Origin: Desmodesmus armatus | Taxonomy: Eukaryota > Chlorophyta > Chlorophyceae > Sphaeropleales > Scenedesmaceae | Direction: 5' to 3' | Assembly: GCA_007449985.2 (NCBI GenBank) | Contig: VIIQ02000039.1 | Coordinates: 434,001-498,000, forward strand | DNA length: 64,000 nt | In this document: piece by piece, positions 128 through 49,056 of the stretch | Position numbering within the stretch: position 1 is the stretch's first letter | Layout of the letters: each line of letters opens with the position of its first letter | The notes under the pieces: model-generated | Told to the model about the DNA's origin: nothing | Seen by the model: the letters and a program-made list of their open reading frames with translations, nothing else | The model's database searches: none | Program-made: the position numbers and the translations under genes

Positions 128-1246
128 CTGGTAGTCCTGCACGTCCTGCAGCCGCCCTTGGTACACTGCTCCTGCGCGCACCCTGACACCCCCCACCAGC
201 ACCACTGTCGCGTCTGCAGGGTCACCATTGGGCGCCACCTCCACAGCTGACACCTGACGCAGCCGCCAGGGGATGGCGGCCGTCAATGCGCTGCTGCTGC
301 TGCCATCGCCGCACTGCTGCTGCTGCTGCTGCTGCTGCTGCAGGTTTTCTGACGGCACCAGCACAAACATGCCTGTCAGGAAGGGTAGCTTGATGGACAG
401 GAGAGCTGCCACTGACTGCTGCAGCCGTACGAAGTGCAGCAGGTCGACACCTGGGATGTGGATGGGGTTTATGTTGGTGGGGGTTGGTAGCAGGGGCTCC
501 TGCAGGGGCAAGCGGGCGGGGAGGGGGGGGGGGGTGAGCAATGTACACAGTCCTGTAGGTGTGAAATTGAGTCAGTGGTGTGAGTGCTGATATTCATTGC
601 ATGTGACCCATTTTCACTCTGAACTACCGGGGCGAAGAAAGGCCGGGGTGGGTGGGGGTGGGGGGGGGGGGGGGAGCAGGTGTGTCTCGGGGCAACTGCA
701 ACAAGGGCAGACATTGTATACACACTGCTGCCGTCATCTCTCCTATGTGTCTAAAGAAGCTTCCAAACTACCACTTGAGGGCAACACCAGACCAACATGC
801 ATGCCCCGATATGTGAATGTGCAGTTTGCTGCCGCACTTGTAGCGGGTGACAGGCGGGTGACAGGCTGGTCTACAGGTCACGGGGATCCTGCTGACCAAC
901 AAGTCAACATTGCAAAGTTGATACCCTTTCACCAGCTGACAGGACTCACCAATGCAAGCTCCTGCTGCAGCAGCACTTGGTCCAGCTGAGATTTTGGGCG
1001 CTTCCGGACCAGGGTTGTGCAGCTGGCCGGGGCAGCTGCATGATTGCTGCACTGCACCTGCTGGCCAGTGTAACTGCTCCGCATCGCATTGCAGGCTCCA
1101 TCACCCGTCTTCTGCTTCTGTTCTAGCTGCTGCTGCTCTTCCTGCTTGATTTGTACTCTGCCCACGTTGGTAGCAGTGCTGTCAGGGCTGTCTGGAAGCT
1201 TGCATTGTAATTCGCACTTCATGGCGGCCTCCTCCTGCTTAAACAT
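128..1246 (-). CDS. Array copy I: 5' part of Q/A-rich repeated-domain gene (runs off left edge)
   Basis: First two exons of the leftmost member of the five-copy family. Exon Z is 950-1246: 99 codons from ATG 1246, opening MFKQEEAAMK, with a SUMO-consensus-like IKQE and ending QLDQVLLQQELAL before a GTGAGT donor. Exon A is 128-499: 124 codons between CCTGCAG acceptor and GTGCGC donor, starting EPLLPTPTN, with a short Gln run and the family core RQVSAVEVAP...ADATVVLVGG. The core reads VGGVRVRAGAV where the other copies have VGGDRVRAG. Both exons are phase 0, as in the other copies. Exons B, C, D and the repeated domains would lie beyond position 1. The start is supported by copy II, whose exon Z is also exactly 297 bp from its ATG. 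Function is unknown; the protein is inferred to be nuclear from its relatives. Confidence 0.7.
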
Positions 1247-2253
1247 CGCGCATGAAATTACCCAAAGCTTGGTTGCCAGCGGCTAGCCGCAGCAGCAGCA
1301 GACGCAAAGCTACTGCCCCATCGTGGGACACCAGCAACTGATTTTGGGCCCACTGCGCAGAACAACAGACTCTTTCGCAAATTTTGTTTCCGTGTAATCC
1401 AATGAGCGTGGTTCCTGGGCGATCTGAGCAGCAACCGGTAAGGGGCACCCGCGGGTTCAAGAAACCGACACCATCGGACCGCTCACAATACATTTCAGAC
1501 CATGCCATGCAATTTGCAAGTGTTTCAAATCAATTTTAGCCACTGTGTCGCCACGTGAAGCTTACGATAGGTACACGTCAGCTGTAGCATGTGCCACCCT
1601 GGGTTGACTTGGCTTCAATGCCAGAAGCAACCCCCGGTACGTAAGGCGTGTCAGTAGCGTGTGACAGCTGCTCCTCCTGCTACAGCTTACGGGCTTGGCT
1701 GAGCAACAGCATCGACGGATTCAAGGCAGGAACATTCAACAACTGGTGACTTGCAACTTTGCCTAGGCCTGGCTGTCCATGCTTCAGCCTGTACATGTGT
1801 AAAGGTGTGTTAAACCCAAATCTGCGGCCCTGAGGTTCATCCATCAGACATCGTCGATATCACTGTCAATATCACTGCGCTGTCTGCACACCACTGAGAG
1901 GGTCGGGGCTCTCTCAAACCGCTACAAAGTTGCACACGTGCAGAAATCAGTGGGGAGAACTTCCATGCACATCACAGATGCCACTTTGAGAAACCACCCA
2001 ACCATATCATATTGTGCCATGCTGGCCTTTGGGGTCCATGTGTTCTCATGGTCACACTCCAAAAGTGTCCACAATTCAGAGTAAAAGCAGTGGGGGGTGG
2101 GTGGGTGGGTGGGTGGGGGGGGGGCTACCTGTGAGATTGCAACAAAGACAGAGACCTCTATCAACTGATGGAGCCTCTGTTGCAGGGGCACTCCACTACA
2201 TCACCACGGGCTCAGGTACCTCAGGCTCAGGTACCCCGGGCTCAGGTATCAAT

Positions 2254-2390
2254 GCAGTACAAAGTACTGCAAATACTGCAGTACAAAGTACTGCAAATAC
2301 TGCAGTACAAAGTACTGCAAATACTGCAGTACAAAGTACTGCAAATACTGCAGTACAAAGTACTGCAAATACTGCAGTACAAAGTACTGC
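2254..2390 (+). repeat. Array of six 24-bp units, each a perfect hairpin
   Basis: The unit GCAGTACaaaGTACTGC plus an AAATACT spacer, repeated six times without error. Every unit can fold into a 7-bp stem with a three-base loop, and GTAC sites recur. Just upstream, 2213-2248 has related CTCAGGTACC-type repeats. Confidence 0.92.
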
Positions 2391-4008: not shown

Positions 4009-5796
4009 TCACCAGCGGTACGCACTGGTGCGTGGTGGTGGTGGTGGTGGTGCTGCAGTGGTGTGGTACCGCCCGCCATACCCAGGGCCTCCTACCCCTC
4101 CTCCTGACCGGCCTACTGCTGCTACTGCAGCAAGCCGCAGCTCCTCATGGCACTTGGGGTGCAAGCTGATGTCATACTTGGTGGCCCAAAAAAGCTCCGG
4201 AGTCGCGTCCACAAAGGCAGTGACGGTGCCGTAGTATTGCAGGACACGCTCGGGCAGCGGCAGTCGGTCTCGCAGGGACTGCAGTGGGATGATCGTAGGC
4301 GTGTGCGACAACGGGACTGACAGCGCCAGCTGCTGGAGCCATCTGCGTGCTGCTGCTCGCACCTGGTGCAGACAAGCAGCAGAAGTGGGCACGTGTTAGT
4401 GAGCAACAGCATGTTAGATAGTCTTGGATGTGAACCCCGGGTAGGGCGCCCAAATTGCAAAGTGATGACTGCCAAGAAAAAAGGTGCACCACAACTTGTT
4501 GCATCTGCGTTCACCGTTGCGTTGTTGTGAAACAGTTCGACGTGGCGTTGTTGTGAAAAAGTTTCGATCACTGCCAAAAATTACTTTACCAGCATCTCCG
4601 CCTGCGTGCCTCACCTGTCGCCGTGCCGCATCCCGCAGCTGCTCGTGAAACCCAAACTCCAGGCTGACCGTCTTCAATTGCCAGTCAAAGTGCAGGCCCT
4701 CCACCGACCTCAGGAACTTGCTCACAGAGCCGAAGAACTCCGCTAGAAGCTCCGGTACTGGCAACTCAATCCGCACCTCGTGCAGTTGAATCGTCGCCGA
4801 AGGCCGAGCGGGCTCCAGCCACACAGCCAACTGCTGCAGCCAATCACTCGCTGCTGCGAACACTTCCCTGGGCAAGTCGTCTGGCAACCCGTAGCCCGCG
4901 ATTGGGTGCGGGTAAGGCCCTGCTGCTGCTGCTGCTGGATCGAGTGCCTGCCGCTTCCATGGCCTGCTGTCTTCTGCCTCCTCCCCAGGCCGCTGCCGCT
5001 GCTTACCCCCACCATAACCGCCACCATAACTGCCACCATAACCGCCACGCCTGGGCTGGTGTGCCCCTTCTGCTGCTGCAGCCTCAGCCCTAAGCTGCAA
5101 GAGGGTCTCAGGGTACAACCTGACGATCCCTGCATTCCACTTCAGGCCCCTATACTGACCCCGCTGTCGCACCCACATCACAAACGCAGCCACCCCGCCA
5201 AAGTATCTGTACACCAGACCAGGGATGGGCAGCTGCTGCCTTAACTCACTAGTAGATATTTCAGGCCTGTCGGGGTCCAACAGCAGAGCCAGCTGCTGCA
5301 GCCAGCTGACCGCAGCTGCCTGCACGTTTTGAGGCACGTCCCCCTCCTCCTCCTCTTCCTCCCCTCCTCCTGCTGCTGCTGCTGCTGCGGCGGCGGAGGC
5401 ACCTGCTGCTCCTGCTGCTCCCACTCATCCTGCAGTTCCTGCAAGCTGCCGTCACCGCCCACCCCAGCCTCCAAAAAGCGCCGCCGCTTTGCTGGTGGCC
5501 CACCCGCAAGTTCAAACATTTCAGCAAGGTGGGCCTCAGCAGCAGCTTGTGCCCTAAGGCATTTGTGGTATTCAGCTTCAAACTGAATCGTAGTGCCCTT
5601 GCCGTACAACCTCAGGCCTGGCACCGCCTCCACGAGCGCTGTAATGCTGCCGTAGTGCTGCAGAACAACCTCAGGCACCGGCAGCTGCTGCTCCAGCCGC
5701 GAGAACCTGATGAGCCCTTGGGGAGGGGGCCCCGGTAGCACAAGCTCTGCTAGCTCGAGCAGCCAGGTGCGAAGCGCGGTCTGGACATGCCTAGGA

Positions 5797-5836
<40 letters not shown>

Positions 5837-6999
5837 GCCGCCACTGCCGGTGCAGCTCTGGATCCAACTGGATGCACTTGTGCGAGCGAGGACCAAGCCA
5901 GGAGATACCTGGTGTATAGTCCACAACCTGCAGGATGCCCCCCATGTGCTGTATCACATTGTCGGGCACAGGCAGCTTCTTGTGGAGCTCTTTCAGGGTG
6001 ATGCAGGCAGGAGGGTACTGGGGACCCCCTGACTCTGGCAGTAGCAGAGCTAGCTGGTGTAGCCAAGGGAGCAGCTGGTCTCTGATCTCCCAGCCCTCTC
6101 CACCTTCTGCCCAGAAGCCCACACCTTCCTGCCCCTGCCCATGCCACAGGCCCTCTTCCTCCTGATCCTCCCCTGCCAGCTGCTGCTGCTGCTGCTGTTG
6201 GGGTTGATGTCACCACCCCCACCACCACCACCACCACCAGCAGCAGCAGCAGCAGACTCGTCTATCCAATCCCCATCCTCCACTGCCCCTCCCGCTGCCA
6301 GCCTCAACTCACGGTGTGCTGCTGGCAGCAGCCGGACCCGAGTGTGCTGGTTAGGGTGCTCGCCAGCCCCCTGAGCCCACTCCAGCTCTGGGGCGGCCTC
6401 CACAAACTTGGCAAAGGAGCCATAGCACAGCACGACACAGCGCGGCAGCGGCAGCCGGATCTTCAGGGCCTCTACTGAGATGCTGGCAGGGGGGTTAGTC
6501 AGCTCGAGCAGCAGTGCGAGCTGCTGTAGCCAGCTGCGAGCCTCTGCCTCTGCCTGGGCCTCCTCTACTTTATGTGACACCTGCTGCTGTGGCAGCTGGA
6601 CTATGTGGGCACAGGGCCGCGTGGAGGGCTGAGCAGTGCCTTCAAGCTTCACCTGGCGCTGCTGCTGCTGCTGCTGCTTGGGAGGCTTGCTTGTAGCTGC
6701 AGGTGTAGCTGAAAGTACCCGTGGTGCTGCTGCTGCTGCTGCATGTTCCACCTTCATGGGCTGCTGCTGCTGGCCTGCTGCTGGTGAGGTACAGCTTCGA
6801 TCGTCCCCAGCAGCAGCAGGAGCAACGGCAGCAGGCGGCTGCAGCCTGTGCAAGACGCTGCCACTGCCACTTGCAGGCTTGGTGGCAGTGGCATCAGCAT
6901 CAGCAGCTGTAGTACCTGCACCAGCACCAGCTGCAGCAGCAGCAGGCGGCTGCAGCCTCCGCAGGATGCTGCTGCCACCGGCAGCCGAAGTAGCTCCAT

Positions 7000-7045
<46 letters not shown>

Positions 7046-7239
7046 CGGCTGCAGCCTGTGTAAGACGCTGCCACTGCCGCTGGCAGGCTTGGTGGCAGTG
7101 GTACCAGCATCAACGGACTGCACCCTCTGCATGACCCCGCTGCTGCCAGCGACAGCTGAGGTACCTCCACCGGCAGCAGCAGGAGCAGCAGCAGCAGGCG
7201 GCTGCAGCCTGCGCAGAACGCTGCCGCTGGCAGGCTTGG

Positions 7240-7276
<37 letters not shown>

Positions 7277-7547
7277 TTCCAACATCTGCATGACCCCGCT
7301 GCTGCCGCCATCAGCTTTGTTGCCTGTAACAGCAGTCGCGCCAGGTGCAGCAGCAGGAGCAGCGGCAGCAGCAGCCTGCTGCTGTCGCAGCCCCTGCAGG
7401 ATGCTGCTCCTCCGGCCCAAACGGTTGGTGACAGCATTGTGTATGCCACTCACACCAGCAGTGCGTCCAGCAGCAGCTGCAGTGCTGCCAGCGACTGCTG
7501 TGCCAGCAGCAGCAGCATCCTTAGCAGCGCTGTTGGTTACTGCTTTG

Positions 7548-7591
<44 letters not shown>

Positions 7592-8601
7592 GCTGTCAGG
7601 CGCTGTGCTGGCACCGCCAGCAGCGGTAATACTGCCTGCGCCTGCTTTGCCAGCAGCAGCGGCAGTGGTGGCAGCGCTGCCTGGATGTACGGTGCTGACA
7701 CCACCACCAGCAGCAGCAGCAGCAGCACCCTGGAACATCTGATTCAGCCAGGCCTCATCCCTGGACTGCTCGGCAGCTGGTGCTGCTGCTGGGGCCTTTG
7801 CTGCTGCGGCCTTTGCTGCTGCTGCTGCTGTCTTTCCTGCAGCGTCTGTATTCCTTGCTGCTGCTGCTGCACTCTGCTGCAAACTTGGTCCCATGTTGCT
7901 GCTGCTGCTGCGCTCAAGCTTAACCTTGGGGGCTGCAGCTGCCGTGGGGCCTGCTGCCTGGGGCTTGCTTGAAACAGCAGCAGCAGCAGCAGCACCGCCA
8001 GCAGCACCAGCAGCATGCTTGCCCTGTGGGACGTCTGGCTTCACTGCTGGCGTAGCCGGTGTGGCTGCCGCACCCACCCTGCGGCTGGTGTTGCTGCTGC
8101 GTGGTTTGCTGCTCTTGGTACTTTGCTGCGCAAGCACTGCCCCTGCCAGCTGCTGCCGTTGCTGCTGCTGCTCGTGCTGCTGCTTGAACTGCTGCTGTGG
8201 CTCAACAATGAGTTGGGACTGTTTGATTCTGGCCTCAGACCCATCAGCAGCAGCAGCAGCAGCAGTAGCCCCAGCCGCTGCCTTACCCCGCTGCCTTAAC
8301 GAGGGCAAGCTCCTGTCCCTGTCCCCTGGAGCACCTGATGCTTTGCGAGCTGCAGCAGCAGTCACCCCTCCTGCTGCTGCTGCTGTTGGTGGTGCTTGCA
8401 ACCGTGCCTTCTTGGCCGCACTACCCCCATCAGCAGCAGCAGCTGCAGCTGCGGGCGTGGTGGTGGATTGCCGCTTCTTGCTCCCGCTCTGCAGGCGGTC
8501 AGGAACTGCTGCTGCTGCTGCTGCTGCTGGTGGTGCTGCTGGTGGCCCCTGAGAGCCCAGACTCGGCCGGCTGCAGCTTGCAACAACGACACCAGCACCA
8601 C

Positions 8602-8648
<47 letters not shown>

Positions 8649-8973
8649 GTTGCTCCTGGCGCAGCACCAGCAGCAGATGTTGGTGGTGCAGCGGCAGCAA
8701 TGGCAGCATCTGCACGGCTGCCCTGCCTGGGGGTTTGGTGCTGCATTGCTGCTGCAGCACCGGCCCCTGCATCTGCCGCTGCTGCTGCGGCAGCAGCAGC
8801 TGCTGCCAGCACAGCAGCTGCTGCGGAACCCCCCTCTAGTGCTCTTGCCTGACTGCTTGGTACTGCCGCTGCTGCTGCTGCTGGTGGTGTGACATGTGGT
8901 TCTAGCTGTGCGCTATAGTTGGCAGCTGCAGCAGGCACTTTGACCATGCCAGCTTGAAATCCACCACCACCAC

Positions 8974-9010
<37 letters not shown>

Positions 9011-9312
9011 TTGTGAGCCTGCTGCTCCACCAGCTCCGGCAGAGCCGCCTGTGGCGAAAAGCTGACTGCAAGCAGCCAACGCATCTTGCAGCCGTTGCTG
9101 CTCTTGCTGCTGCTGCTGCTGCTGCTGCTGAAGGTTACCGTACTGTGCCAAGTGGCTGTGCGCCAGATGCAGCTGCTGCTGCTGCTGCTGCTGCTGCAGC
9201 AGCATGTCAACACCCAGTGCCGGCAGGCCGCGCTGTTGCTGTTGGCCCAGCACTACCATCCCCCCGGCAGCCGCTGCTGCAGGATCTACAGCCGCTGCCG
9301 CTTCTGACGGAC

Positions 9313-9344
<32 letters not shown>

Positions 9345-9400
9345 AGCTGATGCTGCCCGTCCAGCTGGTGCTGCTGCTGCTGCTGCTGCAGCACTTCCAG

Positions 9401-9434
<34 letters not shown>

Positions 9435-12400
9435 AGTGGCTGCCCCGGAAGGCGCTCCCAAGGCACAAAATCCGCCAATGGCCGTGGCTGCTGTCCCGCC
9501 AGCTTGCACTGCAGGTAGTGCTGCCAGGCTGCGGTGGCATTGCTCAACAGCTCCATGTACTGCCCTGCACTTAGCGGCTGCCAGGGCTGGTCGGGGGAGT
9601 CTGGCCACTGCTGGGGGTTGAGCTCAGCATATGCCAGGACCTGCACGGTGACCAAGTCGCGACACAGGGCACCATGCTGAGATGTTGGGGTTGCAGTTCA
9701 GACCTGCCAGGTGAACAGGTTGTGTGTGTGTGGGGGGGGGGGTCCTACTGACAAACATCAGCTGTGCAATGAACGCCCCAATCCAATGTCGGCCAAACTG
9801 CGCAGCACATTGCCTGGTTGGATGGCGCCGCCGCACCCGGTCAGAACGTTGGCTGGGCATGGCCTCACCTGCTTGCTGACAAAGTCGTGTGGCGGCATCT
9901 TGCGCAGTATGCTTGCAGCGGCCTCCAACGCGGGCCGGCCCACCTCAGCTGCCAACTCAGGCTCATAACCAGCAGCCAACATCCCCGCTTGCTCCTACAT
10001 TGAAACATCCACAACACAGAAGTTGGCGAGGCAAAGTCCCCTGGTCAGATAAAACTTAGTGCATGAAAGTACATTGCAGGGTCATTGCTATGAGCTCAGG
10101 TTCATAGCCAGCCGCCAACATCCCCGCTTGCTCCTGCAATGATAGGCAGATAAGTTGGCAAGCAAACGTCCCCCAGTCAGATAGAGTTGAGTGCAGAGAA
10201 GTAAATTGCAGGGTCATGCTATAACATCAACACAGGCTTACAGCCGGCCGCTAACATCCCTGGTGCCCCTCTGCAGGCAGCCAGCAGCACATAGTACATG
10301 TGACAGCTTGACAGTCTCTGAGCACTGCATGGTCACCAAGCGCCATGTCTGCTGCATTCACACAGTCACACACTTGTCAAGGCTCAACAGAACAGACTTG
10401 TCAAAGCTAACAGAGGGCGAATACATATTCGTGCATCACAATCGCACACCTGTCAATGTTCAATCAAGGACAGTACACAGTCATGCGTGACAACATCATT
10501 TAGCAGCACCACAGGCCCTCACACAAATCCAGCTGCTTCTTACTGTTGTGTGTGCTGTGATGGCTTCACCCGCATCTCATGCCGTGTACAGCTAAAGATG
10601 CCAGTGAACGGCATGATAGGGTTGGTCTAGCAAACATGTTTCACTACAGGTCCCTACCAAAAAATGGCCCTTGCCTCAGTCATTACTACTTTGCTCAAAC
10701 CGCTGCTTACCGCAGCGTGTGCTTTGATGGCGTCGCCAGCTTCTTGTGCCGTGTAGAGCCGCCACGCAATCACAGCAAAGGTCAGCACACGCAGCTGACG
10801 CAGCTGGCCAGCTTCTTGGAGAGCAGCAATTTCACAACACAGGTACTGCAGACGGAAGCAATCAACAGCAGGCACACACACAGGGGCAGCACGTTTGGGT
10901 GAAATATCTCTTCAGTGTGGCATTTGACATGCCAGCGCAGTTGCTACAGCTGCCCCCAATCCTTCAAGGCAGCACCCCACAGCACGGGTACTGCAGGCAG
11001 ATATCAGCGGCACACACGCAGGACCAGCACACTTGAGAACTACTACTACTACTACTACTGCTACTACTACTACTACTACTGCTATACTGGGTCAGGGCCA
11101 CGCCTGACAGCCCTTTCTGGAGCCAAACTAGGCTGATAGGGCATATCCACACACAAGGGCCACAAAGCCACACTCCAACAAAGGAAACACATTCCATGAC
11201 AAGTCCACACCACCACCAAACAAACAACGCACACTTGCAAACAAATGTCTCATATCATCCCAAGACGGTCTTGAGTGCAAACTGCTGACTTGAGTGCAAG
11301 CCTCATAAGTGGGTCAGTCTACTTTTCAGCTGGCTTCACACGAATCCTGAGTGAAAACACCATTAGTGTGTCTCAAAATCGTCTACTCAAGGAACATCCC
11401 CTAGATTGTACCGTCTGCTTCTCCCTGTCAGGGTCATGCCCCCCCCCCCCCCCGCTCCCCCATACCTGAAAGTCCTGCACTTCCTGCAGCTGCCCCTCAT
11501 GCACTGCTCCTGCGCGCACCCTGTCACCCCCCACCAGCACCACTGTCGCGTCTGCAGGGTCACCATTAGGCGCCACCTCCACAGCTGACACCTGACGCAG
11601 ACGCCAGGGTATGGCAGCTGCCACCGCGTTGCTGCTGCTGCCGCTGAACCCTGCTTGCTGGATTTCAAACGGCGACAGCTGCAACTGTGCTGAAGGCACC
11701 AGCACAAACATGCCGTCCAGCAGCTGCAGCTGCATGCCTAAGTGTGCTGCGACGGACTGCTGTGTGTCGATGAATTGCAGGAGGTCTCTCTGCGGCAGGT
11801 AGACTGTCTGCAAATTGCCTGATGTTGGCAGCAGGGGCTCCTGTGGGGTGCATGGATAGACCGGCAGGACAAAAGGGGGTGGGGGGGGGGGCGGTATGTG
11901 GTGTTTGTAAGGGGAAAAAGGAACAAACAGTTTGCAGTACAGTTGGTCAGGCTTGCAATGTAGTGGATAGTGGTGATGGTGCTGCACTGATGTCATTAGG
12001 AAGAGAGGGGTGAGAGTCAGGAGACACGTACACAAGATGGCATGCAGTTGGGTCAGCAACCCTTCAACCACCCAGCACATAGTGCCGATGGAAGTCTGGA
12101 ATTGTTTAGAATCCCAGTGGAATAGTCTTTTGCCTTGGACTGGAATCCTGCCAACATTCCAGTGGAAAAGGCTCTAAATGGAATAGAATCCACAAAATAG
12201 AATCCTGTGGAATTCTATTAGAACTGGAACACTGTGATTCTGTTTCAGTTCCACCCACCCTACCCCCCCCCCCCCCCCAGGTTCCAGGGGTTCCTTCCAT
12301 TCCACATTCCAAAAAGTCTCGGAACCCTCGATCTGCGCGTAGAGTGTCTGTTCGATTAATTGTTACATCAAGAATCTATTTTGCGTTAAGTCAACGCCGT

Positions 12401-25122: not shown

Positions 25123-25169
<47 letters not shown>

Positions 25170-25215
25170 AGCGCCTGCAGCGCCTGCTGCTGCTGCTGCT
25201 GCAGCGCCTGCAGCG

Positions 25216-25268
<53 letters not shown>

Positions 25269-25587
25269 GGCGGCGGCTGGACACGCTCCGCAGCCTCCTG
25301 CCGCAAGCGTCTGTGCACTTTCCCGTACATACAGACGATCGCCCTGCTTGGCCTAACACACATGCTCTTCATCCCTGCCAGCGCCTCCAAAGCACCTTCC
25401 AAGGAGGTTCCAAAGTGCTGCAGTGCAGAAGCAGGCAGGGGTAACCTTTCCAGCAACTGCGCTACAGCTAGCCAGGGGGCTCGCTGCCCAAGCTCTGGTG
25501 GGTCGAAAAGCATGGCCAGCTCACGCTGCCATGCCCACAGATCTGAGAAGACCTGCTGTGGTAAAGGCTGCTTGCCTTCGGCCTGCA

Positions 25588-25624
<37 letters not shown>

Positions 25625-25644
25625 GTGGTAGTGGTGGCGCAGCG

Positions 25645-25693
<49 letters not shown>

Positions 25694-25951
25694 AGGAGTG
25701 GCTATATGGTAGCCTCCTTGCCATACACTGCTGCTGCTGCTGCTGCTGAAGCCAGGTAGTCCTTCCACCACCCCAGCAGCAGCAGCAGCAGCAGTGTTGA
25801 CCGCCGCTGCTTGCAGCGGGTGCTGATGTGGGGTGGCAGGAAAGGACCCAGCCAATCCACTGATGCTGCTGCAGCCCTCAAACTGCTGCGGCTGCCAAGC
25901 CAGATCTTCAGCCTGGCAGCCAGTCGCCCACTGCTGCTGCTGCTCTTGGTA

Positions 25952-25983
<32 letters not shown>

Positions 25984-26185
25984 CCAGATCCTCAGCCTCA
26001 GCTTCGGCCAGCAGCTGCAGCATCGGGTCAGGGCCAAAATCAGCTTCATCCTCCCCAAGCTGCTGCCACTGCTGAATAGCATGCTGCTGCTGCTGCTGCT
26101 GCTGCCAAGTTGGATTTTCACCCCTGGCTTCGGCCAGCAGCTGCAGCAGCCCAAGTTCTTCAGCCCCCTCCCAATACTGCTCACC

Positions 26186-26230
<45 letters not shown>

Positions 26231-26529
26231 CCCAGGAGCCTCAGGCTGGCACTGGTGCTGCTGCTGCTGCTGCTGCTGCTGCTTCCCAGGAGCCTCAGGC
26301 TGGCACTGGTGCTGCTGCTGCTGCTGCTGTTGGTCAACATCCATCTGGTCAATGCCACCATCAGGCCCCAATGCCTCGTCAGGATCCAAGCAGCAGCTGG
26401 CACTGGACAGCCTGCCTTTCAGCCCACTGCCGCTGCTGCTACTGCTGCAGCGGCGGCGGCCTCCCTAGCGAGCATCCCTGCCGTCCCCCCTAGCCCCACA
26501 AGCTTTGCTGCCGCCTGCAAAGCCACCAC

Positions 26530-26564
<35 letters not shown>

Positions 26565-26840
26565 GTGGCGGCGGCGGCACTATGTGCTGGTTCGGCAGCA
26601 GCAGCAGCTGTTGCACCAGGAGTGGCGGGACTATGGACCACATCAACAGCTGCTTCTGGGGTCGTGCTTACACCCAGAAGACGGTAACTGCTGCTGTGAA
26701 CAGGGACACCACCAGTGCCAGTGTGTGCCGTGTTCTGGTCGTCTGGCTGTGTAGGAGCAGCTGTTGGGCCCTCTGTAAGCCGCCGCTTCTTAGGGTGTAG
26801 TGAGGAAGGGCTGGCAGCAGGAGGCCGTACTGCTGCTGCT

Positions 26841-26872
<32 letters not shown>

Positions 26873-27006
26873 TGCTGCTGCTTTTGCTGCTGCTATGGCA
26901 GCTGCTGCAGAGCCTGCTGGTGGTGGTGCTGCTCCTGGTGCTGCTGGTGTCTGGTTCTGTCTAGCACTAGCACCAGCAGCAGCAACAACAGCAGCAGCAC
27001 CACCAG

Positions 27007-27067
<61 letters not shown>

Positions 27068-35025: not shown

Positions 35026-38000
35026 TCAGCGCCCCCTCAGCTGCAAGTGAAACCTGTGCTCCAAGCTCACCCTACCCGCCTTGTAATCCCAGTTCAGGCC
35101 AGGTACGGCCCGTATGAAGCCCTCCAAACTACCAAAGTGGGCCACAACAGCAGCCGGCACAGGCTGCTCCTTCAACAGGGTGCTGCTGCTGATGCTGACT
35201 GGCGGCTGCATGATCTCCACTTTCGCTGCCAGCTGCTGCAGCCAGCCCCGTGCCTGCTCTTTTATGGCCGGCGGCATGGGTTCGCGCTGCAGCTGCTGGT
35301 GCTGGTTGTGGTTGCTTCTGGTTGCAGCAGAAGCCCCGGAACCATCCGTGCCCTTGCTGTCACCCACACCACCCCCACCACCAGCAGCCTCCCGCCGCAG
35401 CTCCCGATGCAGCGCTGGCTCCAAACCCACCAAAGTAGTGAAGGGGTCAAAGTGCAGGCCCGGAATCGAGCTGTACACTCGGTCCGGGTTTCTAGAGAAG
35501 AACCCCATCACAACCTCTGGGATAGGTGCCCGCTGCCTGATCTGTTGCCGCCACAGCCTGGTAGGGGGATTGGTCAGCGGCAGCACTACCGCCACCTGCT
35601 GCAGCCACCGCCGGACCTCATTCTGCGCCCATACAGGCAGCTGACCGCCCAGCTGCCCAGCAGCAGCAGTAGCAGCAGCAGCCGGCCCGCTTCCCTGCCG
35701 CCCTAGCCCCTCCATGACGCCGTCCCCTACCCGCACCGCACCCGGCCCCTGGCTGCTGCTGTCGCTGTCAGGAACCCCGGCTTGCCGCCTCAGCAGCATG
35801 TGCACGTGGGGATCCAGTGTCACGCAGTCCTGCAGCCCGGCCCAGAGCAGTGCAGAAGTGCCCTTCACAAACCGCACGAGGCCCCCATAGTGATCCAGCA
35901 CGCACTGCGGCACCGGCAGCACGTCCTTGAACTCGCCGATGGCCAGGTACGGTGCAGGGAGGCCCGGCTTCAGCAGCAGCGCCAGCTGCTGCAGCCATAC
36001 CTCCACCGCAACACGCACCTTCCCTTCTATATACTTCCGGGCCACGAAGCTGCCGCTGCCACTGCCACTGCTGCTGATGCTGCCTGGGGGGGGGGGGATA
36101 CGCGCCGCCATTCCCGCCGGCCCCTGGCTCGTCTTTGATCACACCAGGCGGCGGTGGAGCCTGGAACGGCAGAGCATGCAGGGGCATCTTAGTGCGTAGT
36201 GTCACCCCTGCTGCTTTGGCAGCCTCCCGAAGCTTCCGGTGAGCCTCTGGCAGCAGACTGACGTGGTGGTGCTTCGGACCCATGAGCAGTAGCTCCGGGG
36301 TGTCCTCCACAAACTGCAGAATACCGCCGTAGTGCCGCACCAGGAGCTCAGGGACGGGGACTGTGTGCTTGAAATCGAAGACCCAGATGTGGTCTGCAGG
36401 GGAGTCCCCCTCGGCAGGCCGCAGCAGCAGCGCCATCTGCATCAGCCACTCATGCGTCAGCTGTTGGAGGGTGCCCTCGTCGACAGCAGTGCCTTTGCCG
36501 CTGCCGCCCGGCACAACAGCCCTGCCGCTGCTGCCCAGGCGCCAGCTGTACACTGGGCCACCAACCCGCTGCTGCTGCTGCTCTGACTTGACCTTGGGGG
36601 CAGCAGCAGCAGCACCCTCAGCAGCGCGTTTGTCACCGCTGCTGCCGCTGCGCTTGTTGGACGGCGGGGCGCGCCCCACGACCACCTCAAACTTCCGTTT
36701 GCTGCAGCCGTCAGCTGGGCTGCCCGGCGCACCCTGCTGCGTCGCTGCTGCTGCTGCTGCTGCTTTGACTTCCCCGTCCCCTGCAGCAGGACCCTGACCC
36801 TCAGGCTGCTGCAGTCCGACAGCACCGGCCGCTGCTTGCTGTTCTGCAGCTGCGAGCTGCAGACGGATGGGCTGGGTTATGTTGGCGCCAAAGCGCGGGC
36901 GCTTCCTGGCGCTCGTTGCCCCAGGCGCATCTGCAGCAGCAGCAGCATGAGCAGGGGAGCCACTCGCCTCGCCGCTGCTGCTGGCAGCAACCCCGCCAGC
37001 GGCAGCAGCAGGTGCTGCGCCTGCTGGTGTTGCCGGGGGTGGTAGTGCTGGTGTGTCTGAGGCTGCAGCAGATGGACTCCACGGAGGGGAGGCTGGCGCC
37101 AGCGCAGCATTGTCCCCTGGTCCGTCCAAAGGCCGTTTCACGGCACCTGGCCGCTGCGCGTAGGTGTTGGCCGCCTTGTGTGCCGCAGCTTCGGCTGCAG
37201 ATGCAGCAGCAGCAGCAGCAGCCAGGGCGGCAGCGGCAGCAGAGCCAGGGTAGGCGGGCGCCTTGCTGGCACCTGCGCTGCCATGGGCTGCTGCTGCTCC
37301 TACACTGCCTGTAGCTGCTGCTGCTGCTGCTGACGAACCAGGTGCCTTGCCGGTACTTGCACTCCCGAAGGCTGCTGCTGCCCCTGCTGTATGCACCGCT
37401 GCTGCTGCTGAATTGGCAGGAGCATTCCTGGCTGGGCCAGCTGCTGGCCCTGCACCACAGACAGCATTTCCTGCTGCTGCAGCAGCTGCTACAGCCACCG
37501 CTGGGACACCAGCGGCCCTGTTGTTGTCCTGTCCTGCACGCGCTGCTGGGCTGCCGGTGGCTGCTGCATGCTGCAGCAGCTGCATGGGCTGTACTGCTTG
37601 GTGCTGGCCCTCCTGCGGCTCCTGCTTCACACACGGCTGCTGCTGCCACTGCTGCTGTAGCTGTGGGGCCGCTGCAGCATGACCATGCTGCTGGTGCTGC
37701 TGCTGTTGCGCGGTCATGGAGTCTGCAACATGTGCAGCATGTGCAGCATCACCGGCAGCAGCAGTTTGCGCAGGTGGCGCAAAGGCCGTTTGAGCAGATT
37801 CGCCACTGGGCAGCAGCTGCAGCAGCTGCTGCAGCTGTGAGCTTGGCGGCTGCATGTGCTGAGCATCTGGCAGCTGCAGGTGGTGGGAGTCCGATGGGCC
37901 GGCCTGGTTTTGCTCCCTACTAGGTAGGTAAGACTGCTGCTGCTGCTGTTGCGGCAGCAGTTGCGGCAGCGGAAGCGGCTGCCACTGCTGCTGCTGCTGC

Positions 38001-40683
38001 AACTGTCCAGATATGTGAGGCTGCAGCTGCTGCTGGGACACTCCAGCAGAACCTTCGCTGGACACTGGTGCTGGTGCTGCTGCTACCGTCAGCAGGCCTG
38101 CAGCAGCGCTGTCTGTCACCTGTGCCGGGAGCACCTGCTGCTGCTGCTGCTGCTGCTGCTGACCGGCGTCCGCACCCGTCATCAGCACGTCTGTAGCGAC
38201 AAGCCCTGCAATGACAGTGTTGGGCACTGCCATGCAGGGCTGCTCAAAGCCAGGCAAGGGCTGCTGCTGGAGCTGCTGCTGCTGCTGGCCGGCGTCTTCC
38301 ATCAGCACATCTGTGCTGACCAGTCCTGCAGTGGCAGCAGCAGGCGCTGCCATGCAGAGCTGCTCAGAGCCAGGCAGGGACCTCCAAGGCACAAAGTCAG
38401 TCACCGGCCGCGGCTGCTGTCCTGCCAGCTTGCACTGCATGTAGTGCTGCCAGGCTGCGGCAGCACCCTGCAGCAGCTGATTGAAGTGCCCTGCTGTCAG
38501 TGGCTGGTCAGGGGACTCTGGCTGCTGCTGTGGATTCAGCTCAACGAACTGCAGAATCTGCAAACAGCAAAGCAGGCGGCGGTCAGAGAGCAACACAGCA
38601 CAGGCACCATGCGCATTAGCACAATTGCTGTCAGTGTTGGTATCACCCTGAGTGTTTTGACTCACAGACACAGAAGTGATGAGACACAGACAAGCCAGCA
38701 ACAGGCAAGCCAGCACAAAGAACAACAACAACACAATCTTTTGTGACTGCATCTGCTGGTGTTGCTGCCCCACACTCAATGCCCCGTCGTGTGCTGTTTG
38801 CTGGGTTCTGCTTGCTGCCTGCAGCAGCAACACAAGGATCATAGTCAGGCTGTACGGCACACTACACAGAAGCAAACCCCACTCTCACATGCTCGCTGGT
38901 CCAGTTGGGTGGAGGCAGCTTCTTGATGAGGCTGCCGACTGCCTCCAGCCCAGCCCGGCCTGCCTCCTGGAGCAGCCCAGGTTCATAGCCAGCTGCTGAC
39001 ATCTCAGCTTGCTCCTGCAGTGACAGTAACAGGCCACAAGACAGGAGTTGGCAAGGCACACTGTCATTCCAGTCGGATACAGTACAGCATGATTTTGTAC
39101 AGTACAGTTTAATACAATACAGCCATTGCTACTAGCTCAGGTTTGCAGCCAGTTGCTGACATCTCAATGTTCTCCTGCAGTAACAGGCCACATATGCAGG
39201 ATTTGGCATGGAAGGCATTCCATCCCAATCAGATGCAACCTGGTACTGCGCCATCAGCATGCACTGGCCTGCACCAGGCCTGGGCCCAGCGGCTACTTTG
39301 GGTGAGTCAGTGCACCTGCAGCAAGCAGTGGCCTGGCATTTACCCCTTCCCACTGCAGCAGAACAGCACCACGCATATGCAACCCATGCCCTTACTCCTG
39401 CTGAGTACAGAACACATAAAGGATGCCATGCTGACGTCTGTTCACATATCATCTCTCACCTGCTCGTGCACGTTGATGGCTCCCTCCATGCTGCACGCTG
39501 TCTGCAGCCGCCAGGCCATGTGGGCAACGTCAAACACACTCAGCTCCCGCAGCATACGCGCCTGCTGTAGGGCCGCCACTTCACAGCACAGGAACTGCAG
39601 CAGGAAATGACAGACAGCCGAACAGGAGGCAGCTAGTAATGAGTTTCAAGTGTCGTGTGCTTGTCTAACTCATCAGACACGCATGCGCTGCGGGTCACAG
39701 TGATACCTGCATCACCAAAGCAGTAACCAGGCAGGCTTGTACATGCAGACCAACCTGCAGTATGCTGAGTGTGTGCTGCATAGCACGGCTGTTGTTCAGC
39801 TGCAAGCTACGACCAAATACACTGTGCCAAAAACAGACACCGCTACTATGCATGTGCGGACAACATCCATTGTGGGTACAATTGCCTACCTGATAGTCCT
39901 GCACCTCAGCCAGCAGCCCCTCCCTCATTGCTCCTGCGCGCACCCTGTCACCCCCCACCAGCACCACTGTCGCGTCTGCAGGGTCACCATTAGGCGCCAC
40001 CTCCACAGCTGACACCTGACGCAGACGCCAGGGGATGCTGATGCTGCACTGCTGCTGCTGGAGGTTGCCTGATGGCACCAGCACAAACATGCCATTGAGC
40101 AGTGGCAGTTTCATGCCAAGGTGCGCCTCCACCCACTGTTGCACCCGCAGGAACTGCAGTAGATCGCTGTATGGTACATGGATTGGGTTGAGGTTGGTTG
40201 GGGTCGGCAGCAGGAGCTCCTGCGCAAGGTCAAACACACGCCAGCATGTTTACAATGTTCAGTCTGCACAGTCTGACGCCAGTAGGCACTTGCACCCTGC
40301 ACTGTGGCATGCATCTGTCTAAAAACTTGTACGCAGGAAGGAACACACGGATGTTGTCGATGGCAAGACAGATGCCAACCTGGTACCCTGGTCAATTATA
40401 GTGTGCCACCGCACACGCACAGTTGCAATGACCAGGCTGCTGAGGGTTCCTGGTTGCAGCAAGGCACTGTCCTATGTTGGCAAAGTCCCTGCTTGCTGGC
40501 TACGGCTTGCAGGACACGGGCTTGTGTCCCACACAATCAGCAGAGTAAAGGGAGACTCACCAGCACAGATGGCTGCTTCAGCAAAACCTGGTCCAACAAT
40601 GGTCTTGACTGTGGGGCACTGAGAGGGGCTGCTGCAGCTGAGCTGCAGACAGGTGGCTGCACTACAGTGCTGGTCTGCTGCAT
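35026..40683 (-). CDS. Array copy IV: Q/A-rich protein with four repeated winged-helix-like domains
   Basis: Exons: Z 40561-40683 (41 codons, opens MQQTSTVVQPP, ends LLDQVLLKQPSVL), A 39890-40219 (110 codons), B 39460-39594 (135 bp), C 38889-39014 (126 bp), D from 38557 to the stop at 35026. D opens ILQFVELNPQQQPESPDQP and includes AAAAWQHYMQCKLAGQQPRP, Gln and Ala runs, SUMO-like VKQEP, VKSEQ and IKDEP, and two basic motifs (RKRPRFGAN and CSKRKFEVVVG) shared with copy V. Four domains follow at about 36210-36450, 35800-35990, 35400-35620 and 35045-35240. Domain 2 reads VWLQQLALLLKPGLPAPYLA, then VLPVPQCVLDHYGG. The reading frame changes once, at the run of about 13 C near 36088 (coding strand), inside a proline stretch; one base more or fewer there would restore it. 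Closest relative within the window is copy V. Confidence 0.78.
38985..39180 (-). repeat. Duplicated start of exon C in copy IV
   Basis: Exon C of copy IV begins at 39014. A diverged second copy of its first part, with a CTGCAG acceptor, lies at about 39133-39180. The intron between holds the shared phrase TGCAGTGACAGTAACAGGCC / TGCAGTAACAGGCC and several CAGTACAG-type repeats. The same exon start is duplicated in copy II. Confidence 0.6.
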
Positions 40684-43200: not shown

Positions 43201-46200
43201 TCATCGCTTCATCCCGTGCCTCAGCTGTGACAAATGAAAACTGTGCTCCAAGCTAACTGTGCCCGTCTCAGCATCCCAGCACAGGCCGGGTACAGCCCGT
43301 ATGTACCCCTCCACACTGCCAAAGTGGGCCACAACAGCAGCCGGCACGGGCTGCTCCTGCACCAGGGCGCTGCTGCTGATGCTGACCGGCGGCAGTTTGA
43401 TCTCTACTGCCGCCGCCAGCTGCTGCAGCCAAGCACGTGCCTGCAGCTGCACGGCCTTTGGCATGGGGCCATGCTGCTGCTGCTGCTGCTGCTGCTCCTG
43501 AGGCTGCGGCAACGGCGGCTGCTGCTGCTGCGTAGACGTCCGCTGCTGCTGCAAAGGCCGATGCTGCTGCTGCTGCTGCGGCGGCGGCGGCGGCACCATC
43601 CGCGGCTGCCGTTGCTGCTGCGGCACCATCCGCTCCAGCTGCTGCGGTGCCAGAGGCAATGGCCGCTGCTGCTGCTGCTGCAACTGCAACTGCCGCTGCT
43701 GCAGCCGCTGCTGCTGCTGCAACAACATCCGCTGCTGCTGTTGCTGCTGCGGCGGCGGTGGCGGCGGCAGTGTCCGCTGCTGCTGCTGCTGCACCATCGG
43801 CCGCTGCTGCTGCTGCTGGTGGTGGTGATGGTGGATGGCGTCGTTGCTGGCAACAGACGCCGCCCCAAACTGCCAACCGCATGTGCTCCCAAGGTTGCCC
43901 TGCAAGCCACTGCCACTGCCATTCCGTGCTGCCTCCTCACCCTGCAGCAGCTGCGGCGGCGGCTGGGGGCTGCTGCTGTCTCCATCACACACCCCAGCCC
44001 TCCTTCTCAGCTCCAGGTGCAGCTGAGCATCAAGCCCAACGCAGTCTGTGGGCCCACGCCAGCACAGGGCAGGATGTTACATCACAAACTGCAAGGCACA
44101 AGGGGGATGCATGCGCACGTGCTTTTAGCTCAGCACACATGACCTTAGCAGGCAGGCTTGCCCAAACACTCAGCATCCAAATCACTGTGTCTGCATGCCC
44201 AAACAGACAAACATGCTACAGGCAACTGACTTGACACACCATCAGGCCACCAATGAGCTGTGGTCACCTGGCTGGGTATGGGCAGCAAAGGCCAAGGCAA
44301 CAAAAACACCTTGGCCCCTGCCCCCACTTTTGACTAGTTGAGTGGCTCCAACAGGTAAAAAAAATTGGCCACGACACTCACGCGCTTGAAGCCGGCATAG
44401 AAGCTGATAACGCAGTCAGGCACCGGTAGCTGGGACCTCAAAACCTCCAGGGAGACATATGGCGGGGGGTGACCCGGCTTCACCAGCACTGCCAGCTGCT
44501 GCAGCCATGCGTCTTGCGCAGCCCAAACCTTGGCACAAGGCACTGGCGGCAGGAAGTGCCGGGAGCCTCCTGCTGTGCCAGATGGAGATCGCAGCGGCAT
44601 GGCCCCCCTGAAATACAAAAGCAGCGGGCGCGGGCTTGACAAATGGTACAGACAAAAATCCAGCGACCCAACCTGCTACCTATCTACTACCTGACCTTAC
44701 TGCGTGCTACATACTCCCTACTTGTCTGTACGCTTGACAGCTGCTCGACCAATCTTGTCGGCATCTGGACCCTACTGTGCGCATGCAAGCAGCTGAGAAC
44801 ACTAAAGGAAAACCCCAGGCACATGACTAACAATTGACAGACACGTGTCACAGGAAGACATTGATGCAAGGATGAAATGCAGCATAAGCAACTAAAGTAA
44901 AATTACTGTTACTGTTGTTGTGTATTACCTGTTGAGCAGTGTCACCCCTGCTGCTGCAGCTGACTCTCGTAGCTCCCTGTGAGCATCAGGCAGCAGCCCG
45001 ACGTGGTTCTCCGGCGCACTGAACCTCAGCTCAGGCGTCGCTATCACAAAAGCAAGCACGCCCCCGTAGTGCCGCGCGACAGCTTCAGGGATGGGCAGCC
45101 GCGATTTGAAGTCAGACAGGCCAATGTGGTCAGCGGGGGTGTTACCCGCTGCAGGCCGGAGCAGCGCAAGCTGCTGTAGCCATAGCTCCACTTGTGTACT
45201 GACACTGCTGTCGTTGCCAGTGGGAGGTGCCGTTGTCGGCTGCCTGGCACTGCTGCCGTTCCCGGCGACAGCAGCAGCGTCAGGCAGCCGGCGGCTGCCC
45301 ACCCCAGCAGCACAGTCGCTGGTGCTGCTGCTGCTGGCCAGGTGCATGCTGCAGGCACCCACCCTCTGCTGCTCGTGGCTGCTGCCTGCAACAGCCCCAG
45401 CACATTTGTCAGCACTGCTGCTGCTGGTTCTCACAGCAAGGTTGGATTGGGACACCCCTCCTGTGAAGACCTCAAACTTCCGCTTGCTGCTGCCGACATC
45501 AGCAGTTGTGGCAGCCACATCCCGCTGCTGAAATGCATCAGCAGCGATCTCAGCAGTGATGTGGCACAATGGCTGGCGCTGCTGTTGCTGCTGCTGCTGC
45601 TGTTGCTGATGCTCGCCAGCACCAGCTGCTCCTTGCGGCCCAGAAGCCAGCTGCATTCGTATGGGCTCGCCCACGTTGGCCCCAAAACATGGACGCTTTC
45701 TGCTGTCAGGTACGCTGCCTGCTGCTCCTTCTGCCCCTGCGTTACTGACGGCTGCTGCCGCTGCAGCCGCCGTTGCTGCTGCTGTCTGTCCTGCAAGCGC
45801 TTGGTTGCTGCCGCTTGCTGCTGGATGATGTACCGCCTGCTGCTCCTGCTTCGTGCGCTGCTGCTGCTGCTGCTGTGGGCCTGCTGCGGCATCCACATGC
45901 TGCTGCTGCTGCTGCTGCTGCTGTCCCCTGACGGTCGAGTCTGCACAGTCCGCGGCAGCAGCAGCTTGCGCAGGCAGTACAAACCCCGTCTGTGCAGATC
46001 CAACACTATGCAGCAGCTGCAGCGGTTGCTGCAGCTGCTGCGCGTGCTGTTCATCTGGCAGCTCGACGTGGTACTCAGCTGAAGACACAGTCTGCCTGAG
46101 CCCCTTATCAAGCAGTGGTGTGGGCTCTGACTGGTGCTGCTGCTGCGCAAGCGGCGACTGCTGCTGCTGCTGCAGTGGTGGCACCCCGTGGCCTGGCGAC

Positions 46201-49056
46201 TGCACCTGCATGTGCTGCTGACTGGGCGCTTGATGCTGCTGCTGTTGCTGCTGCGGTTGCAACCATTGCTGCTGATGCTTCTGCGGCGGCAGCGGCCCAT
46301 GCCGTGTTGACAGCGGGTGCAGCTGCTGCTGCGACAGCCCGGCAGATCCCTGGCTGGTGGCTGCCTGCAGAGGTGCATCTGTCAGCTGTGGCGGCTGATG
46401 GTGCTTGTGCTGCTGCTGTTGCTGCTGCTTGTGCTGCTGCTGGCTGCCGACTCCAGCAGCCATCAGCGCAGCTGTGCTGGCAGAAGTTGGCATGCAGGGC
46501 TGCTCCAAGTCCGGCAAGGCCTGCTGCTCGTACTGCTGCTGCTGGACAGCAACCCCAGTCACCATCAGCACATCTGTGCTGACAAGTCCTGCAGTGTCAG
46601 CAGCAGGTGGTGCCATGCAGGGCTGGTCATAGCCAGCTAGGGGCTGCCAGGGTACCAACTGCAGCACCGGCTGCGGCTGCTGTCCTGTCAGCTTGCACTG
46701 CACGTAGTGCTGCCAGGCTGCAGCAGCATCACTCAACAGCTGAGCGTACTGCCCTGCACTCAACAGCTTCCAGGGCTGGTCTGGGGACTCTGGGTACTGC
46801 TGGGGGTTGAGCTCAATGAATGGGAGAATCTGCACACAGCAGCCCAGCCAGGAAGGCGCCCAGTCAGCACAGAGGTTGCGGGCACAGCACAGCATGCAGC
46901 AACAAGTACAAAGCACTGGCAGCAGTGACGCTACAGCATAACGACCATGCAGGCCAGCAGTTGAGCCAAACCAGGCAACCTGTGATTGCAACCGCTGGTG
47001 CTGCTACCCCACAACCTGCCCTCCATCATCAACCGTATGCTGCTGATTGCTTGTAGCTGTGATGCGACAGCAGCACCAGGCAGTGATAAACACGTACGTG
47101 CTCGCTGATCCAGTCGGGTGGTGGCAGCTTCTTGATTAGGTTGCCCACTGCATCAACACCAACCCGGTCTGCCTCTGCAATCAAGCCAGCTTCATAGCCA
47201 GCCGCCAACAGCTGTGCTTGCTCCTGCAGCAGCAAGACAGTAGAACATTTGTCAAAGTAAGCAAACAGTACAGTACAGTGCAGTACAGTACAGTATCTGC
47301 GACAGAGGCACCATCAACAGCACTAGCTAGCTAGCCAACGCGTCACCGGCAAGCATTGGAGTTGAGGTGAGTGGTTTCACCGGCCCAACCCTGGCAATGC
47401 CTTTGATGTGTGGGAATGTGTCTGCGTGTCACATTTTGAGTTTGCTGCTGTTACACAGAGCGCAGGACAGTGGGGGGGAAGGGGCGGGCCTTTGACGGGT
47501 GCTGTTAGTTAGGCATATCGAGGGGACTCCCCCTATTGGGCCAATAGCGCATGATACTTCAAAAACAACTGCATGATGTGTTGCTGTCGAGGCGCACGCG
47601 CCAGGTCCCAACATCAAGGCCCTCACCTGCGCCTATTGCTGCACCTTTTCCTGCAGCTCCTCAACCTTGGGATCTGGCATTTGTGTACCAGCAATGCCAC
47701 CTTGCATGCGGTCCATGCTTGCGGACTGTGTACACCTGCGCCCCCTTGTTGTGTAGTATAGCTGTACCCCCTTGCACCTCACCTGCTCATGTGTGTTTAT
47801 GGCAGCCTCCATATCGCATGCTGTCTGCAGCCGCCAGGCCATGTGTGCAATGTCAAACACGCGCAACTGCCGCAGCCTGCCGGCCTGCTGCAGGGCCGCC
47901 ACCTCACAGCACAGGTACTGCAGGCAGCAAGTGATACAAACAGGGAGACAGACGATCCAGGCGCATGGTTCACTGATCCCATCGTGTGCTGGCACACCTA
48001 CTCAAGCAATGTACTCCCCCTCCTTCCTGGTAAATGGAACTGCTGTAAATGCACACACAGGCGGTGGGGGATATCTGGAGTGCCACACGGCCACACAAGT
48101 ACGCTATGCTTCTTGCCATAGTCCGTGCCGCCGCAACCAGACGCCCAGCAGCACTGCATGTGGCCTCACATGCATGCTTGCCTGTTGTGCTGCTGCTGTG
48201 CTGAACATGCAGTATGCTTGCCATGGCCCAGCACACCTGGCAACCAGGCACCTATGCAGCTCTCGGTGCACTGCAGGACATCTCGTTCTGCGACTACAGT
48301 TGCATACAGCATGAAGCCTGTCGGTCAGTTTGCCTACCTGATGATCCGCCACATCAGCCAGCTGCCCCTCATGCACTGCTCCTGCGCGAACCCTGTCGCC
48401 TCCCACCAGCACCACTGTCGCGTCTGCAGGGTCAGCACCAGGCGCCACCTCCACAGCTGACACCTGACGCAAGCAACATGGAATGACCGCTGCCACCGTG
48501 CTGTTGCTGCTGCTGCTGATGCTGCCACACTGCTGCTGCTGGAGGTTGCCTGATGGCACCAGCACAAACATGCCATTCAGCAGTGGCAGTTTCAAGCTGA
48601 GGTGCCCCTCCACCCACTGCTGCACCCGCAGGAATTGCAGCAGGTCGCTGCATGGTACATGGATTGAGTTGAGGTTGGCTGGAGTCGGCAGCAGCAGCTC
48701 CTGCAACAGCAAGCCATGCACACACCATACACAACATTCGTCCTCGGACAGCCCGTTCAGTGTGCTGTACCCGCCCCCATGTTTGTGTTGGTATTCCTTA
48801 TCTGAAGTGAAGCATGTGAAACTTCGTGTCAACATAAAAACAATGGGTCAGCAGCGTAAATGCTGTGATGATGCAGACAGCCAGGTATTGGACATTCTGG
48901 CGTGGTATGCCAACTGGGCCCTGATGCTCCTGTGATACACGCACATCCCACCTGCATAGATGGTTGCTCGATCAAAACTTTATCCAAGCAGGATGTGGCT
49001 TGTGGGGCTCTGGGAGGGGGTGCGATGCAGGTGGGTGGCTGTTCCCAAGTCTGCAT
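43201..49056 (-). pseudogene. Array copy V: family member with a premature stop in its second domain
   Basis: Exons: Z 48952-49056 (start 49056 or 49155; ends CLDKVLIEQPSMQ), A 48338-48700 (121 codons), B 47783-47917 (135 bp), C 47098-47223 (126 bp), D 44929-46829 (opens ILPFIELNPQQYPESPDQPW, ends in domain 1 at about 44960-45185), E 44382-44607 (first half of domain 2, WLQQLAVLVKPGHPPPYVS), F from 44088. All phases agree from Z to F. Exon F opens Phe-Val-Met-stop: a TAA at 44079-44077 replaces a codon that is Gly in the aligned copy IV (FVKGTSALLW against FVM-stop-HPALCW). Downstream the frame stays open to the natural stop at 43201, with a Q-rich linker and a last domain very like that of copy IV. 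The result is either a recent pseudogene, a truncated protein lacking its last one and a half domains, or an error at one base. Confidence 0.72.
44077..44079 (-). other. In-frame TAA in array copy V
   Basis: This is the third codon after Phe 44088-44086 in the exon that begins after the CTTGCAG acceptor. The phase is fixed by exons E (44382-44607) and D (end 44929). Alignment to copy IV is gap-free across the stop, so it looks like a substitution rather than a wrong frame. The next usable acceptor (CCCACAG, about 44050) would put exon F in the wrong phase. Confidence 0.7.

Follow-up and report, generated by a model that had tools for sequence, protein, structure and literature searches.

A clustered Desmodesmus armatus gene family with domains new to the libraries searched and exon patches apparently homogenised among linked copies

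What kind of proteins does a run of similar genes in a green alga encode, and what keeps some parts of these genes alike while others vary? We address these questions for a 64,000-nucleotide stretch of Desmodesmus armatus DNA (assembly GCA_007449985.2, contig VIIQ02000039.1, 434,001..498,000 of the forward strand), which we call the window. An original prediction, made from the sequence alone, had placed here a five-copy head-to-tail array of an apparently undescribed gene family. The contig is referred to as C35, and copies are named by their C35 positions; those in the window are also numbered I to V. C55, C227, C300 and C677 are other contigs of the same genome, of which 115.8 Mb in 831 contigs were scanned. 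Chlorophyll a/b-binding protein sequences were matched by 40 pieces of it, which marks the source as a photosynthetic eukaryote.

The window holds one end of a larger gene cluster

We re-found five copies on the minus strand at window positions 128-49056, with exons in the order (Z-)A-B-C-D, AG/GT borders and phase 0 junctions (Table 1). The shared exon order, the consensus splice sites with phase 0, and the exon lengths (135 bp for B and 126 bp for C in copies II to V, 297 bp for Z in copies I and II) are all as had been predicted. We conclude that the five copies are structured as real protein-coding genes with introns. The encoded protein starts with Z, followed by A, B, C and D, a Gln/Ala-rich linker, and copies of a repeated domain of about 73 residues that we call T. 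A TGTAA polyadenylation signal was not found within 900 bp past the last T open stretch of four copies.

The genome scan placed exon A at 20 loci on both strands of C35, from about 137.7 to 482.7 kb (~345 kb), with one further locus on C55 and one diverged locus on C300 (33 scan matches, grouped into genes by hand). Exon B was found at 19 places on C35 and at one on C55, and a locus on C227 carries exons B, C and T. The five copies of the predicted array are thus present, but the array is one end of a cluster whose 20 exon-A loci run in both directions. Follow-up sequence analyses used 19 C35 copies, the copy at C35:360113 being left out.

T domains come after the exon D start and the linker in most copies, and 13 of the 19 fetched C35 copies have between one and six. 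The counts are six, two, four and three for copies II to V (two partial matches in copy V counted as one), and three for copy I, to the left of the window. A genome scan with a T profile returned 33 matches at an expectation value (E) <=0.01, all of them on C35, C55 and C227.

The domains match no known family in the libraries searched

Pfam scans of exon Z, exon A, the A-D cores, the linkers and T gave no convincing family, and all scored matches fell below cut-off. Searches of PDB sequences with the family returned nothing below E 0.2, and four family motif strings did not occur in the literature searched. These empty Pfam, PDB and literature searches support the prediction that the family is undescribed.

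Several weak matches were considered and rejected. In 9 of 12 members, a stretch of about 40 exon-A residues aligned to DUF6459 (PF20060), with a best E of 3.5e-4 and over part of the model only. Its scores, 18.1 bits in exon A and 12, 16.3 and 19.9 bits in three of four cores, lie under the curated 27-bit cut-off, and the match probably reflects chance or composition. Other weak Pfam matches were taken in the same way: Lin-8, DUF4064 and DHHC in family stretches, ProQ_C and two more in exon A, Abhydrolase_8 and others in the A-D cores, TFIIA in the copy I linker, and CxxCxxCC, RRP5 OB-fold and PAS in exon Z. Individual scans of 26 T domains listed ten families, each in one T member (best E 0.019), which we also attribute to chance or composition.

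The family is old and its exons are under purifying selection

An exon-A profile identified 75 relatives at E<=0.01 among 8000 scored candidates, those sharing most words with the query out of 5.8 billion predicted proteins. A search of predicted proteins with a T exon, again with 8000 candidates scored, gave one relative with 57% identity over 69% of the query. Residues 1-270 of copy IV found no relative among 6487 candidates, which is probably due to length limits and fragmentary eukaryotic gene calls rather than to true absence. Exon A had no relative among viral contigs, and a 179-base exon-A query had no match in a phage collection. In the 5' half of exon A, 7 of 19 testable copies had an outside relative whose identity exceeded that of every paralogue by at least 0.08 (the truncated copy C35_299873 was left out of this comparison). 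Because some copies have outside relatives closer than any paralogue, the family must be old; judging from these identities, the copies concerned are themselves old and have been kept separately. What the locus adds is a protein family and a repeated domain, both new to the libraries searched, with relatives in many other records.

We calculated pairwise ratios of nonsynonymous to synonymous divergence (dN/dS, or omega) by the Nei-Gojobori method, leaving out weaker matches and setting aside pairs with saturated dS (0 for exon A, 8 for B, 10 for C, 3 for D and 28 for T). Median ratios were 0.45 for exon A (20 sequences), 0.38 for B (21), 0.45 for C (14), 0.37 for D (18) and 0.58 for T (30). 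Omega exceeded 1 in 0 of 190 usable pairs for A, 7 of 202 for B, 3 of 81 for C, 0 of 150 for D and 13 of 407 for T. We conclude that exons A to D are under purifying selection. The original prediction had named a ratio near 1 in exons A to C as a result that would speak against it, and the medians are well below that value. In copies 325635 and 399132, which lie in opposite orientation and are the most alike in the 5' half, dS was 0.13 in exon A and 0.57 in one T pair; parts of one gene therefore differ in age or rate.

The inverted pair of stretches C35:322000-327000 and C35:398900-404200 is 93% identical across a 488-bp segment that includes exon A; in the four alignments next in length, further downstream, identity is 66-84%. 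This suggests a longer conversion or exchange tract.

The window also contains a Ty3/gypsy-like integrase open reading frame (ORF) and a LINE-like (long interspersed nuclear element) reverse transcriptase ORF, so that the family could be the cargo or coding sequence of a locally accumulated mobile element. We consider this very improbable. The exon-A loci are not dispersed, 20 of the 22 lying on one contig. Introns are conserved, the exons are under purifying selection, and closer relatives occur in other records. A match to a transposon protein was another result named beforehand as damaging to the prediction, and Pfam scans, covering transposase, integrase and reverse transcriptase families, detected no such domain in the stretches of the family that were scanned (no search was made for terminal repeats). 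Taken together, we conclude that the gene family is real, old and functional-looking, and that its domains are new to the libraries searched. The genomic setting itself is of a known kind, namely clustered paralogues with conversion.

Short patches of exons A and D appear homogenised among linked copies

Core motifs had been said to be kept while the Gln/Ala linkers vary freely, and this pattern is present. The most conserved motif, VLVGGDRVRAGA, sits in a patch of about 105 bp in the 3' half of exon A. Silent divergence (pS) in this patch was 0.31 among C35 copies and 0.53 against the unlinked C55 copy, whereas the 5' half of the exon gave 0.55 both within C35 and against C55. Although about 182 kb lie between them, copies 280697 (+) and 462596 (-) were 2% different in the patch and 38% different in the 5' half. 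A test for runs of identity at third positions, from which C35_299873 was again left out, reached p<0.01 in 45 of 153 C35-C35 pairs and in 0 of 18 C55 pairs; the observed mean was reached in 0 of 2000 permutations for C35 and in 673 of 2000 for C55. Six C35 copies have an outside relative that is clearly closer; in five of them the patch was at least as close to the C35 paralogues (median) as to that relative. The patch of the unlinked C55 copy was not as close to the C35 paralogues as to its outside relative. The start of exon D pointed in the same direction, while exons B and C showed little or no homogenisation. Altogether, silent sites were alike among most of the 18 linked C35 copies used and not alike to C55, the pattern looked for as a sign of gene conversion.

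The simplest reading of these comparisons is that the VLVGGDRVRAGA patch and the exon D start are kept alike by short-tract gene conversion, and the invariance of VLVGGDRVRAGA is probably in part an effect of conversion. Because both segments look homogenised at silent sites, the contrast between kept motifs and varying linkers is not purely a product of selection.

Several points weigh against this reading. The main limit is that a single unlinked copy, on C55, served as the reference for homogenisation. Three diverged C35 copies (147802, 340871 and 343522) were not homogenised, and copy 372337, the sixth of those just mentioned, remains nearer to its outside relative in the patch too. The permutation test treats sites as exchangeable, and local constraint could lengthen runs. 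For exon D, divergence at alignment codons 40-49 was 0.23 within C35 versus 0.52 to C55, but the score cut-off had removed the two most diverged copies, so that the C35-C35 values come out lower.

We also considered that the exon-A patch is kept by selection on the DNA itself, for example on an exonic splicing or regulatory element. The patch does encode the most conserved residues, and relatives outside this genome keep these amino acids as well. Selection of this kind seems unlikely, however, given that silent divergence between C35 and C55 in the patch (0.53) is about that of the rest of the exon (0.55) when it is 0.31 within C35, that the opposite-strand pair 280697/462596 diverges by 38% in one half of the exon and by 2% in the patch, and that the three diverged C35 copies also lack homogenisation. 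Under gene conversion, the cluster would be a natural case of short coding patches apparently homogenised cluster-wide, between copies of either strand that lie tens to hundreds of kilobases apart, amid neighbouring exons that diverge.

The proteins may be nuclear regulators with variable T arrays

The psi-K-x-E motif is the SUMO consensus, and basic clusters are nuclear signals. Among the window copies, in four Z exons and four D linkers free of T, we counted 10 psi-K-x-E motifs where shuffled sequences gave an expectation of 0.34, and 15 basic clusters where 2.57 were expected. The reversed motif was observed 0 times in the same set, with 0.33 expected. The SUMO-type sites and basic clusters in the linkers argue for a nuclear location. 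We hypothesize, as the most likely reading, that the proteins are nuclear, SUMO-modified regulators with variable T arrays, and give this a rough probability of 0.45, somewhat short of even odds.

Some of our results count against this hypothesis. The psi-K-x-E motifs are confined to copies I (exon Z), II and IV, with none in copies III and V. In a wider set of 12 stretches that included other loci and kept the T domains, 8 were observed against 1.47 expected, two of the eight inside T, and the reversed motif occurred twice against 1.52 expected. Given that shuffling was done sequence by sequence, any clustering of Lys and Glu would score as well. Furthermore, no T was seen in 6 of the 19 fetched C35 copies within the 5-9.5 kb examined, and Pfam scans recognised no DNA- or RNA-binding family in T.

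By its pattern alone, T appears winged-helix-like. One identity that we weighed is a diverged LOTUS (OST-HTH) winged helix, a domain of RNA-binding proteins. The likeness, an impression, lies in the length of about 73 residues, a helix, the pattern I-x-L-x-x-L, Y-G-x-x-x-x-F-V, L-x-W, V-x-L, and the presence of several domains per protein. We regard this identity as unlikely: the OST-HTH profile PF12872 matched one locus in the genome, on C677, and no T locus; OST-HTH was absent from the matches listed for the 26 individually scanned T domains; and the T profile found nothing among PDB sequences at E<=10, all three comparisons being of profiles with sequences rather than of profiles with profiles or of folds.

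Vertebrate KRAB zinc-finger genes are clustered paralogues with a common N-terminal part and a variable array of repeat domains. The family described here resembles them in its paralogue cluster and variable array, and differs in its domains and kingdom.

Another explanation is that the family encodes organelle RNA-binding regulators of the octotricopeptide repeat (OPR) and NCL (NCC-like) kind, which bind chloroplast RNAs. Chromosome 15 of the green alga Chlamydomonas reinhardtii is described as carrying an NCL cluster of at least 32 genes (PMC8226300), and the OPR consensus motif is given as PPPEW (PMC8635915). The present family is likewise a clustered, lineage-restricted expansion, akin to the large lineage-specific set of clustered OPR-RAP paralogues with recurrent duplication described there (PMC8226300, PMC8635915), and exon C of copies II to V ends in K(L/M)PP(P/H)(D/N)(W/F) plus a few residues, which recalls that consensus. 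Each core of copies II to V, however, has one PP(P/H)(D/N)(W/F), and no tandem repeats of 38-40 residues were seen by reading, without a repeat-detection program. For the NCL subfamily, Pfam scans of four cores and eight C-terminal stretches gave no match to RAP, with the gene ends being uncertain. Where the NCL proteins have OPR repeats and RAP, here the A-D exons, Gln/Ala linkers (some with SUMO-type sites) and T repeats are found instead, and we think an OPR/NCL identity quite unlikely.

For nuclear, SUMO-modified regulators, a mechanism can be sketched. The Gln/Ala linkers would serve as flexible segments for interaction, with the T repeats binding nucleic acid or partner proteins. Changes in T number and sequence could then change the target, while the converted patches might preserve a common docking surface. 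Extended in this way, the family would form an undescribed green-algal class of nuclear, SUMO-regulated target-recognition proteins, with a converted docking core and varying T arrays, comparable to KRAB zinc-finger or NCL clusters though unrelated to them in its domains, and possibly driven by an arms race against mobile or organellar targets; we offer this larger picture as a doubtful proposal. If nuclear regulators with variable arrays are indeed encoded here, they would be an algal counterpart both to the NCL cluster, which is directed at the chloroplast, and to the regulator families that form clusters in animals.

Gene models and minor features of the window

Table 1. Exons and T domains of the five copies (window positions).
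Copy	Feature	Position	Strand	Remarks
I	exon Z	950..1246	-	297 bp; begins with ATG; contains three psi-K-x-E motifs and the basic cluster RKRPK
I	exon A	128..499	-	exons B, C, D and three T domains lie left of the window
II	exon Z	14668..14964	-	297 bp; IKTE motif; candidate first exon, exon A 2.8 kb downstream
II	exon A	11466..11840	-
II	exon B	10711..10845	-	135 bp
II	truncated tandem duplicate of exon C start	10083..10133	-	reads into stop
II	exon C	9869..9994	-	126 bp
II	exon D open stretch	6053..9640	-	conserved at its start; psi-K-x-E and basic motifs in the Gln/Ala linker; first T 6293-6532; end given is the first stop, true exon end possibly earlier
II	five more T domains	4126..6065	-	5829-6065, 5544-5765, 5080-5304, 4624-4842, 4126-4341
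III	exon A	28596..28973	-
III	exon B	28154..28288	-	135 bp
III	exon C	27714..27839	-	126 bp
III	exon D open stretch	26468..27457	-
III	open stretch with two T domains	24635..26464	-	T 25292-25531, 24857-25069
IV	candidate exon Z	40561..40683	-	LDQVLLKQ motif close to end; gtgagt donor
IV	exon A	39890..40219	-
IV	exon B	39460..39594	-	135 bp
IV	truncated duplicate of exon C start	39121..39174	-	reads into stop
IV	exon C	38889..39014	-	126 bp
IV	exon D open stretch with first T	35771..38557	-	T 36218-36448
IV	three further T domains	35035..35997	-	35779-35997, 35386-35607, 35035-35244
V	candidate exon Z	48952..49056	-
V	exon A	48338..48700	-
V	exon B	47783..47917	-	135 bp
V	exon C	47098..47223	-	126 bp
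V	exon D open stretch with first T	44928..46829	-	T 44958-45182
V	further T domains	44379-44507 + 43996-44073, 43219-43431	-	first two are partial matches, taken as one split domain

The truncated duplicates of the exon C start in copies II and IV lie just upstream of the real exon and include its 3' splice site. Copy III has a truncated duplicate of the exon B start at 28396-28431 (-), also just upstream of the real exon. The diverged copy at C35:147.8 kb (+) carries truncated duplicates of the exon C start as well (1960-2512 of the fetched stretch), the first of which reads into a stop. It is possible that such truncated duplicates are relics or poison exons. In the same diverged copy, the end of exon A occurs three times in a row (203-1087 of the fetched stretch), once inside the full exon A.

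Scans of the window for tRNAs and, at gathering threshold, for Rfam families returned nothing, and Pfam, run on 92 of the 150 other open stretches of at least 95 codons, gave no match at E<=1e-4. Between copies III and IV, an ORF at 29248-30924 (+) has an integrase zinc-binding (H2C2) domain and a PHD finger over cut-off, with an integrase core match just below cut-off; we read it as a probable Ty3/gypsy-like retrotransposon fragment. A 1314-residue open frame at 52786-56727 (-) has a reverse transcriptase domain and appears to us LINE-like. Minisatellite-like arrays occur at 2253-2393 (24 bp), 13853-14304 (59 bp), 16306-16579 (66 bp), 21045-21521 (173 bp) and 59758-59951 (31 bp).

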